From Lachnospiraceae bacterium MD308 (GTDB taxonomy: Bacteria > Bacillota > Clostridia > Lachnospirales > Lachnospiraceae), in NCBI GenBank assembly GCA_000403475.2, contig KE159796.1, positions 653,736 through 717,735 of the forward strand: a stretch of DNA of 64,000 nt. Direction: 5' to 3'. The notes under the pieces are model-generated. The model was given only the letters and a program-made list of their open reading frames with translations, was not told where the DNA came from and searched no databases. Below are positions 46,629 through 50,841 of this stretch, one piece after another. How positions within the stretch are numbered: the stretch's first letter is position 1; the number at the start of each line of letters is the position of its first letter. Position numbers and translations under genes: made by a program.

Positions 46629-49176
46629 ATGGATAAGGTTAAGAGAAAATACGTATATGTCCTGGCATTTATAATTCCAAGTATGATATTTACATTAATC
46701 TGGAATAAATGCGGGATTTATCCCTTTGGAGAAATAAGTAATATGCGTGCGGATCTGAGTATACAGTATGTGGATCTGTATGCATACCTTCAAAATGTAT
46801 TTCACGGAGAAGCCAGCTTAAGGTATTCATTTACGAAGGCATTAGGAGGCGGCTGCATTGCGTTATTTGCATATTATCTGGCGTCACCGGTCAATATCCT
46901 GCTGGCATTGTTCAACCAGGATGATATGCAGATGTTCATCTATATAGCATCTGTTCTGAAGATCGGTCTCTGCGGGCTGTTTCAGGCGGTGTTTTTAAAG
47001 AAGAGATTTGTTAAGCTGAAAGATTTTGAAGTGCTTGTGCTATCCATGTGTTTTGCCGTATCATATTATAACATCAGCCAGGTGGAAAATCTGATGTGGA
47101 TGGACGGGGTATATATGCTCCCACTGATTTTGTGCGGTGTCTGGTCTTTCTTAGAAAATAGGAGGGGGGGGGGTATTTCTTGCGATAACAGCTGCAGCAT
47201 CCATCCTCTTTAACTGGTACACGGCGTATATGAACTGCCTGTTTGCGAGTATATATTTCTTATTTGAATTGTTGAAAAAGAATGGTCTTGATCTTAAATT
47301 TATTTTGAAAAAGACGTTCTGGTTTGCCTGTTATATGCTGCTTGGAATCTTGCTGAGCAGTGTGTTGTTTTTGCCGAACTTATATGGTCTTCTGCAAGGA
47401 AAAGGCAGCGCTGAAGAGAATATCTTCAACTTTGCAGTGAATGGGAACCTGGCTCACATTATGCGTGGCTTTGTGCTGGGGAACGATCCGGGAAGCAATA
47501 TGCTCAGTTTATTCTGCGGCAGCAGTATCCTGCTTCTGGCAGTGACAGGAATGGTATTTTTATACAAAAAGGCGAAAAAGGAATTTGTTCTGTCAGTGTT
47601 ATTTTTAACATTGATGCTTATCTCGTTATTTTTAAAGCCATTGGAAAATGTTTGGAATGGTTTCCGGTATGCGACGAGTTATATGTACCGCTTCTCTTAT
47701 CTGCAGACCTGGCTGCTGGTTTACTTTGCGGCAGTGGGACTGGTGAACTATGCACGCCGTCAATATACGATTTTTATAGTTTCCGCCGGCTGCATCCTGT
47801 CCTGGATCGTGCTGGATTATATGGTACCTTTTGACGGATACTTTTTATACCTTACATATCTTTATGTAATCCTTATGTCCCTGGGGTGGTATGTCTATAA
47901 GACATATTCTGCGAATATTGCAAGTGCGGGATGCCTGCTCATCTGGGGAGTTGCGGTAATTGAATTGTGCGTTAACGGCAATGCAGTGTGCAGTAAATAT
48001 GCGGGCGACGCCCAATTCTATGTGAATTACGTCTCACAGCAAAAACAGTTGATCGATACGGTGAAATCTATGGATAGGCAAGAGTTTTACCGGATGGAGC
48101 AGACGGTAAACCGGGAATTTTCACAAAATAAAAATTCGGCTTATTTTCTGGAGAGTATGGCTTATGATTACCATAGCTTTTCTCATTATACCTCAACATT
48201 TGATGAGAATGTTAAAAAACTGGGTTCTTCTCTGGGATATGGGGAAAATACTACTGTTAGTATGTATGACGAACCGATTCTTACTTCGGACAGCTTGTTA
48301 GGTATAAAATATGTTCTGGCGGATGCACAGTATCCTCAGCTTAATAGGAAATCTGACCAAATATACAATGGAAAACAAATATATGAAAATCCATATGCAT
48401 TTCCGGTCGGATTTGGAGTGTCGGAATCCTGTATGGAAGCAATCGACCAGGGAAATCATTTTGAATTTCAGAATGCGCTGTATTCTAAACTTTTGGGAAG
48501 AGATGTTCAGCTATATCAGCCGGTGCAATACCAGGTGGTTTCCCATGGAGAAAATGAAATCACTTACGGGGTGGATCTGACAGAGGGGTGCATTTTATAC
48601 GGTTATGCAGATTCCGGGGTAGGGAATTTGGAATTATTTATTGATGATCAGTACAGATGCCGTTATCAGGGATGGCTTAGTTACCGCGTGTTTAATATCG
48701 GTGAAACTGCGGGTACGCATTATGTCAGATTTGAAAATTTCAATGGCAGCGAGGAGCAGATTCGGCCGTGGTTTTACCAGTTAGACCTAAAGCTTTTTCA
48801 GGAAGTGGTCGAGGAACTGAAAAGCAGTGTATTTGAATTGGAAACGTTTAAGGATGGATTGGTAGAGGGTAAATATCATGCCGGGGAAGATGGATGGGTA
48901 TTATTGACAATCCCCTCAGAAAAGGGCTGGGCAGGAAAAGTGAACGGAGAATCCGTCAGCTTGCAGAGCGGAGCCAATGCGCTTATGATGGTTCCGGTTA
49001 AAAGCGGGGAAAATCACATAGTCCTTAAGTATCATGTGCCATTTTTGAAAACAGGGTTTATTATGACTGTCCTTGCAGGAATCGTGTTGACCATGTTTGG
49101 CTGTAAAGATAAGCTGCAGCTTATACTAAAAAACATACGTAAGGATGCGAAAACCGAGGGAGGTGTCGGAGTATGA
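46629..49176 (+). pseudogene. yfhO: YfhO family membrane glycosylation protein, frameshifted at a G10 tract
   Basis: YfhO proteins are large multi-membrane GT-C-like proteins needed with the GT2 CsbB to transfer a sugar from undecaprenyl phosphate to lipoteichoic acid outside the cell. The 5' part (46629-47213, 194 residues, starting KRKYVYVLAFIIPSMIFTLI) and the 3' part (from about 47174 to 49176) are in different frames. Removing one G from the ten at 47164-47173 joins them into an 848-residue protein reading RRGGVFLAITAAASILFNWY across the site. The rest looks intact, with about a dozen hydrophobic helices and a C-terminal lectin-like/beta domain. It could be a phase-variable gene in the off state, a recent mutation or a sequencing error. 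It overlaps csbB by ATGA. Confidence 0.85.
47164..47173 (+). repeat. Homopolymer G10 tract in yfhO
   Basis: Ten consecutive G bases preceded by AGGA. The number decides the reading frame: ten gives a stop at 47211-47213, nine restores the full protein. It is the longest G run I noticed in the window. Confidence 0.9.
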
Positions 49177-50225: not shown

Positions 50226-50417
50226 ATGCCAAGTGTATCAGACATTATAAGAGATTCAATTGTTGACTTTTCAAGACTGCAAGATTGGATGATATCAGCG
50301 AAAAAAAATAATGATGAAGAAACATACCAATTAATGTATAAACGCTATATTGAATTAAAAGTTATTTTGACAACAGCAGGGGTTAACCTGACGGAACTGG
50401 ATAAGATCAAAGAGTAA
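50226..50417 (+). CDS. Small helical protein of unknown function (63 aa)
   Basis: This is a 63-residue polar, helical protein (MPSVSDIIRDSIVDFSRLQD...) with no membrane segment or cysteine. ATG at 50226 follows GGGAGGTGGG. It is preceded by an extended -10 promoter and followed by another independent promoter, so it is likely a separate transcript. I do not recognise the family. The heptad-like spacing of hydrophobic residues suggests a helical hairpin. Confidence 0.6.
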   Translation: MPSVSDIIRDSIVDFSRLQDWMISAKKNNDEETYQLMYKRYIELKVILTTAGVNLTELDKIKE

Positions 50418-50426
50418 AAATTACCA

Positions 50427-50455
50427 TTGACATATTCGTGTTTTTTGCATATACT
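50427..50455 (+). promoter_or_regulatory. Strong promoter for the structured RNA/leader
   Basis: TTGACA (50427-50432), a 17-base spacer and TATACT (50450-50455). The predicted transcript starts near 50462 and meets a terminator 150 bases later. Confidence 0.75.
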
Positions 50456-50461
50456 TATTTT

Positions 50462-50624
50462 AAGAACAGCAATGTTTTTAATGTGCAAGCATTTTAAGTT
50501 GTGGACAATTGGAAGTCGGTAAAAATCCAAATCCGTAATTGTATTGCTATAGGCGTACGAGGCTGACAACCAGCAGGAAACTTGTATTTTAAAGCAGGGG
50601 ATATATGTTCTCCTGCTTTTATTA
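50462..50624 (+). ncRNA. Structured RNA: probable riboswitch/attenuator or sRNA
   Basis: Between a near-consensus promoter and an intrinsic terminator lies a 150-160 base stretch with no gene but consistent pairing potential. 50479-50489 pairs with 50581-50591 (ten of eleven, including two G-U), closing the domain. ACAATT (50505-50510) pairs with AATTGT (50537-50542). Inside that, GGA/TCC and CGG/CCG interleave as a possible pseudoknot. GCTG-ACAAC-CAGC forms a hairpin at 50562-50574. Short parts resemble the cobalamin riboswitch core (GGAA..GGTAAAAATCC; CAGGAAAC near the 3' end), but the diagnostic GCCACTG is missing, so identity is open. The 3' side of the closing stem abuts the terminator, a riboswitch-like design. 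Confidence 0.55.
50591..50624 (+). terminator. Intrinsic terminator ahead of the second small gene
   Basis: AGCAGGGGA (50593-50601) pairs with TTCTCCTGCT positions 50609-50617 through nine pairs (one G-U), loop of seven, extended by two A-T pairs and followed by TTTATTA. It lies upstream of the ATG at 50647, so readthrough would be needed to express that gene. Confidence 0.75.
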
Positions 50625-50646
50625 TGTGAAATATACGGGAGATAAA

Positions 50647-50841
50647 ATGAGTATACAAAATATGCATTCGTTATCAGCAGGACACAAAGCCAAATTGCGA
50701 AAGCAATTGATTGTGGGGGCAAGAAATTATAATAAATATTTAGCAAATAAAATATTTAAAATTATTTGCGATGACGGTTTGTTGGATAAGTTGGATGATA
50801 TAATACTGGCAAAGTTTTTGGAGATTATTACAAGACCTTGA
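50647..50841 (+). CDS. Small basic protein of unknown function (64 aa)
   Basis: This is a 64-residue protein from ATG 50647, five bases after GGGAGA. The first half is basic (HSLSAGHKAKLRKQLIVGAR NYNKYLANK), the second acidic/hydrophobic (DDGLLDKLDDIILAKFLEII). I do not recognise a family; it may be the N-terminal remnant of a longer protein. Its position just past the terminator makes it the likely target of the preceding leader RNA. Confidence 0.5.
   Translation: MSIQNMHSLSAGHKAKLRKQLIVGARNYNKYLANKIFKIICDDGLLDKLDDIILAKFLEIITRP

Follow-up and report, generated by a model that had tools for sequence, protein, structure and literature searches.

A putative RNA antitoxin of an undescribed class beside a decayed PBECR4 gene in a Lachnospiraceae genome

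Main finding

Upstream of a small open reading frame (ORF) in Lachnospiraceae bacterium MD308, we identified a short folded RNA that, with a probability of roughly 70%, serves as the antitoxin in a type III-like toxin-antitoxin module whose toxin would be a PBECR4 nuclease. The locus in the window (the whole 64,000-nucleotide stretch of DNA that was analysed) would then be an orphaned antitoxin. This reading draws on gene order, homology, covariation, the co-divergence of RNA and protein, and the retention of the RNA after gene loss. More broadly, PBECR4 proteins probably act as toxins in a broad superfamily of toxin-antitoxin systems in which RNA inhibits the toxin, with a nuclease fold of their own beside ToxN. 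Their antitoxins would fall into several RNA classes, some with hairpin loops that pair with strands of the same RNA, the last loop closing on the first strand; the drum RNA would be one of these and the window RNA another, undescribed class. A partial literature, excluding preprints, supplements and the original drum paper, yielded no paper that connects either PBECR4 or drum with toxin-antitoxin systems and none on PBECR4 by name, and priority is therefore uncertain.

The module in the window

The original prediction placed a promoter, a structured RNA and a terminator before a tiny gene, and this observation is confirmed (Table 1). A closing stem had also been proposed. The pairing of TGCAAG with CTTGTA on which it drew does exist, but homologues suggest that it joins the loop of a small hairpin to the 3' tail. 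According to the ORF listing, the reading frame of the small gene can also be read from an upstream ATG at 50605, giving 78 codons.

Table 1. Features of the module in the window (positions are those of the window)
Feature	Position	Strand	Details
Sigma-70-type promoter	50427-50455	+	TTGACA 50427-50432, 17-nt spacer, TATACT 50450-50455; 11 of 12 consensus positions
Putative RNA antitoxin body, class W, one unit	50462-50590	+	Start inferred from the promoter; two near-identical copies and relatives in other genomes
Hairpin H1, AGAACA/TGTTTT	50463-50478	+	4 of 6 pairs with two-sided changes in relatives
Hairpin H2, AATG/CATT	50480-50493	+	Loop TGCAAG 50484-50489 complementary to tail CTTGTA 50581-50586
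Strand S0, GTTGT	50498-50502	+	Complementary to hairpin C loop ACAAC 50566-50570 (long-range pseudoknot); invariant in class W; equivalent pairings covary in class A
H-type pseudoknot	50504-50530	+	GAC 50504-50506/GTC 50515-50517 and TTGGA 50509-50513/TCCAA 50526-50530; stem 1 only 3 pairs in the window
Hairpin B, GTATTGC/GCGTAC	50541-50558	+	One bulged base; 7 full pairs in sister copies
Hairpin C, GCTG-ACAAC-CAGC	50562-50574	+	G-C to C-G in two relatives
Intrinsic terminator, 11 pairs	50591-50619	+	Between RNA and ORF
PBECR4 gene stub, 64 codons	50647-50841	+	First 44 and last 20 codons of the gene; in-frame loss of 157 codons compared with the second copy

Relative to shuffled sequences, the folding energy of the window RNA with its terminator has a z score of -2.78, whereas that of the body without the terminator is -0.52, a nested fold no stabler than the shuffles. 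Because the folding energy of the body is unremarkable, the case for this RNA rests on comparison. A covariance-model search of the whole window returned no Rfam family at or above threshold, and the 261 bases from 50420 to 50680, searched up to an E value of 5, matched only sraA (E 1.1; 19.2 bits against a gathering score of 56). The drum model (RF02958) matched neither the window RNA nor anything else in the window's own genome. By itself, the 64-aa ORF matches no Pfam family and hence no PBECR4 profile.

Just 5' of the promoter lies a 63-codon frame (50226-50414) that is also without a Pfam match. Further upstream, an ORF at 46629-47213 matches the 835-position YfhO profile at positions 1-167 only and is directly followed by a 648-codon ORF (47230-49176); a frame disruption may have split a single YfhO gene into these two.

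Additional copies and decay of the window gene

A first blastn search, which covered 61 genomes, showed that the window's own genome has a second copy on G000:C3, 88% identical over 198 bases; two other matches were attributed to chance. Behind the RNA of the second copy, at G000:C3:472759-473421, is a 221-aa ORF that matches PBECR4 (PF18813; 53.8 bits against a cut-off of 27), and the window ORF aligns with residues 1-44 and the last 20 residues of this protein. Judged from this alignment, the window ORF is a PBECR4 gene with 157 codons deleted in frame, and not a separate small protein family. A histidine motif that is invariant in 28 PBECR4 proteins falls in the part missing from the stub. 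A third copy, on MAG contig JAAWDZ010000047.1 (L013), has the same RNA followed by a PBECR4 gene whose frame is disrupted near its end.

The body of the window RNA is identical to each of the two other copies at 121 of 129 positions (94%; 2 gap columns), while at synonymous sites the stub and the second copy differ with a pS of 0.73. This disparity suggests that the window RNA has been constrained more than neutral sites, although gene conversion confined to the RNA may also explain its identity.

Class W RNAs

We refer to the RNA class of the window as class W. A blastn search for the window RNA in 397 genomes of the window's family (E 0.001 or better) gave matches in 10 genomes. Besides the window's own genome, reading of the loci identified four true relatives (L015, L016, L017 and L019), all longer RNAs with two units each; the weak matches L002, L003, L018, L020 and L021 were rejected as chance on reading, being short, coding-like or without the rest of the RNA. 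Searches around two of the relatives produced matches in 6 of 116 and 4 of 98 genomes and added two true members, L095 and L101. Among the other matches, L096 retains just the promoter and the 5' end of the RNA, L097 is the same locus as L101, and L098, L099, L102 and L103 were likewise read as chance. With L068 and L070, found by reading PBECR4 loci, class W comprises 11 RNAs, four with one unit (the window, L004, L013 and L068) and seven with two.

Four elements make up each unit: a strand S, an H-type pseudoknot, and the hairpins B and C, the loop of C being paired with a strand S. Two hairpins precede the units at the 5' end, and the second of these pairs through its loop with the 3' tail. 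The one-unit RNA of L068 (reverse strand, about 540-760) resembles a fusion of the two units of its relatives, and the PBECR4 frame behind it is interrupted early.

An intact-looking PBECR4 gene follows the class W RNA at L004/L005, L016, L019, L070 and L095; the gene is shortened at L015 and L068. At L017 (1300-1600) and L101 (reverse strand, 1450-1750) the class W helices are in place with no PBECR4 seen behind them, and the genomes concerned (G160 and G069) are not among the 72 genomes with a PBECR4 match. These orphan RNAs perhaps protect against incoming copies. Genome G361 combines a class W module (L016) with two drum loci, one a module (L049) and the other an orphan RNA (L113).

Covariation in class W

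The class W alignment (A5, MAFFT) consists of the seven two-unit RNAs. From it, RNAalifold drew 52 pairs, 16 of them with compensatory change, and recovered several of the class W helices unaided; it also drew a helix (columns 100-107/162-169) in conflict with the proposed pseudoknotted structure. In the same alignment, the proposed structure has 63 pairs with 92.0% of cells paired, compared with 85.9% after shuffling, and 17 pairs changed on both sides, compared with 9.4. None of 500 shuffles was as high in four of five measures; the fifth, the number of further pair types, was not raised (35 versus 35.2 shuffled, with 318 of 500 shuffles as high). With the partners slid, 32-46% of cells are paired, a comparison in which the structure is favoured by having been drawn from the tested sequences, and related sequences can exceed shuffles. 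The counts are too low at L070 and L101, because the MAFFT alignment puts their hairpins B out of register.

A hand-made table of strands covers all 11 RNAs. Its strands were hand-picked and its positions are first string matches, some of them unintended, and the swapped-strand comparison made with it is a rough guide. The 5' strand GUUG and the last loop CAAC show no variation, and because both are invariant the S0-loop pairing is not proven by class W alone.

RNAs upstream of PBECR4 genes across the family

The PBECR4 Pfam model matched 72 of the 397 genomes of the window's family, 65 of them over the cut-off, in 95 rows. We examined 76 of these rows, the remaining 19 being second pieces, partial or weak hits. 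The 73 examined loci with at least 350 nt upstream were scanned for a promoter, a gap of 60-330 nt and a terminator, and 46 other ORFs of at least 120 codons in the same loci served as controls. The full arrangement was found upstream of 60 of the 73 PBECR4 loci compared with 6 of the 46 control ORFs (Fisher p 4e-14), and a terminator upstream of 64 compared with 13 (Fisher p 4e-11). Thus, the type III layout of promoter, RNA, Rho-independent terminator and putative toxin gene is present, with a stub as the gene in the window. Among the 13 loci missed by the scan, nine are class A by eye (see below), L092 is like L072, and L071, L073 and L087 have no recognisable RNA; L082 is positive in the scan yet has no RNA recognisable by eye.

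Further RNA-like stretches with terminators precede PBECR4 at L072 and L092, at L085 and L090, and at L062, L067, L079, L088 and L091; some pairs of them are alike, and none matches drum or classes W, A or D. At L063 a TPP riboswitch (1471-1578) lies downstream of the PBECR4 gene and is unrelated to the module.

All 28 PBECR4 proteins compared match PF18813 and share one invariant histidine. They otherwise match only two DUFs, with one member each, and have no convincing match to another Pfam family; eight match one PHROG of unknown function. A PADLOC match at E 0.02 was taken as chance, the best hit in a PDB sequence search was unrelated (E 0.22), and a fold model of the L013 protein from its single sequence was discarded (mean pLDDT 33).

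Classes A and D

Class A, as named here, has two units and a closing stem, and 21 loci were assigned to it by eye. Its alignment (A6) includes 16 of them; L054, L055, L057, L059 and L063 were excluded for other unit numbers, inserts or layout. The 31 proposed pairs are 96.2% paired, compared with 83.1% in shuffles, and 20 pairs are changed on both sides, compared with 11.5. As in class W, no shuffle out of 500 was as high in four of five measures, and further pair types were not raised (29 versus 27.7; 163 of 500 shuffles as high). In both classes the helices, pseudoknots included, are kept by compensatory changes beyond all 500 shuffles, as far as these alignments can tell.

For the loop-strand comparison, a set of 17 RNAs was extracted by hand (the 16 aligned and L059), 14 of which have two different loops. 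In all 14, full Watson-Crick pairing is possible between the last loop and the 5' strand. The first loop is matched by the strand that follows it, completely in 13 RNAs and with a G-U pair in one. Swapping the loop-strand pairing lowers the score in each of the 14 RNAs.

The original prediction of an undescribed RNA class with pseudoknots agrees with these results, given the missing Rfam match and the compensatory changes in the pseudoknot helices. Conservation beyond close strains and covariation, for which it had called, were both found: relatives occur in other genomes, and in their alignment the helices are kept by compensatory change.

Class D is represented by 15 units in seven RNAs, three of which are near-copies, with 2-3 units per RNA and a period of 32-33 nt. 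Stem 1 is complete in all 15 units, and the pseudoknot stem as written here in 11. Class A RNAs have mostly two units.

Drum and co-divergence with the protein

The drum RNA is reportedly described in a 2017 paper. It receives a passing mention in the available part of PMC7657543. In Rfam searches, drum was over threshold in 10 of 20 PBECR4 loci and then in 7 of 20 others. Across the 397 genomes it has 40 matches over the cut-off, 29 of them with PBECR4 0-300 nt downstream on the same strand. One of the other 11 is at a contig edge; of the 10 that were fetched, L108, L111 and L117 keep PBECR4 remnants and seven have none detectable by tblastn. These seven fit gene loss and also an independent role.

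The co-divergence tree was built from 42 PBECR4 proteins, chosen as full-length and with a classed RNA; truncated and unclassed loci were left out. The four RNA classes need 3 changes on this tree, which is the minimum, compared with a mean of 20.8 after shuffling (0 of 200 shuffles as low). Taken singly, class A needs 2 changes, and drum, D and W need 1 each. Support for the W branch is moderate (87/71), and L005 and L070 are on long branches. On this tree, the RNA and the PBECR4 protein appear to travel and diverge together. Because RNA class follows protein clade, the set could serve as a natural experiment in RNA-protein recognition.

Proposed mechanism and alternative explanations

We propose that most transcripts from the single promoter would stop at the terminator, giving a short RNA with pseudoknots, and that read-through would yield the mRNA of PBECR4, a predicted metal-independent endoribonuclease. 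RNA in excess would bind the nuclease and hold it inactive. Release would follow from loss of the RNA, for example through phage shut-off of host transcription or loss of a plasmid. These triggers are inferred, as are the nuclease activity and toxicity of PBECR4 and its direct neutralisation by the RNA. In the window, the nuclease gene would have been cut to its 64-codon stub, leaving an orphan antitoxin; since the same genome has an intact pair elsewhere, this RNA may still act in trans. The RNA is retained where PBECR4 is deleted, shortened or absent (the window, L017, L101, L108, L111 and L117). Conversely, loci without a recognisable RNA (L071, L073, L082 and L087) have shortened proteins, and L050 is cut by a contig edge. 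A decay pattern in which the RNA outlives the nuclease gene points the same way as the antitoxin reading. If correct, this reading would assign a function to drum, which Rfam lists only as an sRNA, would pair a predicted nuclease family with a partner, and would add one more lineage to the RNA-neutralised toxins; within one bacterial family such toxins would be carried by 72 of the 397 genomes, and they would also occur on plasmids of Enterococcus and Streptococcus.

Other roles for the RNA were considered. In intact pairs it always stands directly before the gene with a terminator between, as would a cis-acting leader. Such a riboswitch or attenuator would respond to a ligand or to the state of the cell by allowing read-through into PBECR4, and its RNA would have no life of its own. 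We consider this unlikely: structurally intact RNAs occur without PBECR4 at L017 and L101, the window RNA has kept its 94% identity though its gene is destroyed, several very different RNAs serve one protein family, and by eye, in an unsystematic inspection of the window, no alternative pairing between RNA body and terminator was seen. The riboswitch reading of the original prediction is likewise weakened, since the partner of intact copies is a predicted nuclease and the RNA persists where the gene is gone. Its more specific form, a variant cobalamin riboswitch, began from a likeness, by eye, between short stretches and parts of the cobalamin core. In relatives the stretches in question form strands of pseudoknots and show compensatory changes, the Rfam search gave no family at threshold and no cobalamin family up to E 5 in the 261 bases, and the intact partner gene is PBECR4, which together make this form extremely improbable.

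The co-divergence of RNA class and protein clade would be expected of any RNA-protein complex, including one in which the RNA would act as cofactor or guide, switching on or directing the PBECR4 nuclease instead of inhibiting it. However, the variable loop letters are matched inside the RNA and are not free, unlike those of a guide, the repeated units and the terminator ahead of the gene are more in keeping with an excess of antitoxin, and the RNA is kept without the protein; we regard this role as improbable. Still less probable is a trans-acting regulatory RNA with unrelated targets that stands before PBECR4 by chance. Rfam types drum as an sRNA, and 10 of its 40 matches lie neither beside a PBECR4 match nor at a contig edge, but the 29 matches directly upstream of PBECR4, the remnants at three of the 10 others, and the agreement of RNA class with protein clade all argue against chance placement.

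Relation to known systems

Tandem repeats are usual in type III antitoxins. In type III loci, a promoter, an RNA, a terminator and a toxin gene follow one another, and the terminator helps to maintain an excess of antitoxin, according to the available part of PMC5086642. The same text gives ToxIN, CptIN and TenpIN one promoter, a pseudoknotted RNA, a Rho-independent terminator and a protein gene, to which the PBECR4 modules correspond, their pseudoknot helices covarying in classes W and A. Class D also resembles ToxI in its tandem H-type pseudoknots, with a period close to the 34-36 nt of ToxI repeats (PMC12373285, in part). In contrast, the PBECR4 proteins are not of the ToxN family (28 of 28 match PF18813), and the window RNA is a single larger unit without tandem repeats. 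In type III systems the RNA binds and neutralises the toxin and the toxin processes the RNA; for PBECR4 modules, neutralisation is a prediction. By protein family, the PBECR4 module stands outside ToxIN, CptIN and TenpIN; by analogy of layout, it would work like one of them.

AbiF of Clostridioides difficile and its RNA RCd22 have the same layout: the gene of a toxic protein is preceded by a short RNA that has a promoter and a terminator of its own, and direct neutralisation of protein by RNA is shown there (PMC12373285, in part). Unlike PBECR4, AbiF belongs to the Abi_2/AbiD/F family, and no RNA examined here matched the Rfam abiF model. Drum precedes PBECR4 in many loci of the window's family, whereas the window RNA is of another class and accompanies another PBECR4 clade. 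PBECR domains of polyvalent phage and plasmid proteins are predicted RNases, and the catalytic role of PBECR4 is likewise a prediction (PMC5512222, in part). They share this predicted RNase domain with the proteins studied here, in which one histidine is invariant, but the available part of PMC5512222 mentions no RNA partner.

PBECR4 outside the family and on plasmids

Outside the window's family, one further genome (G501) among the 249 of the phylum search has PBECR4, and drum precedes it there (L105). One of 14 control genomes, Lactococcus lactis, has PBECR4 over the cut-off. Viral contigs gave no relative in two pattern scans and four protein scans, nor did phages by DNA or with two protein queries, nor plasmids by DNA. 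With four protein queries against plasmids, two found none, one matched a single Butyrivibrio plasmid and one matched 21 records, 19 of them Enterococcus. On the Butyrivibrio plasmid, pCY360, another RNA-like leader stands before PBECR4 by eye, with no Rfam match over threshold. Three of the 21 matching plasmids were opened, and drum precedes PBECR4 on all three, two from Enterococcus with the same RNA and one from Streptococcus suis.
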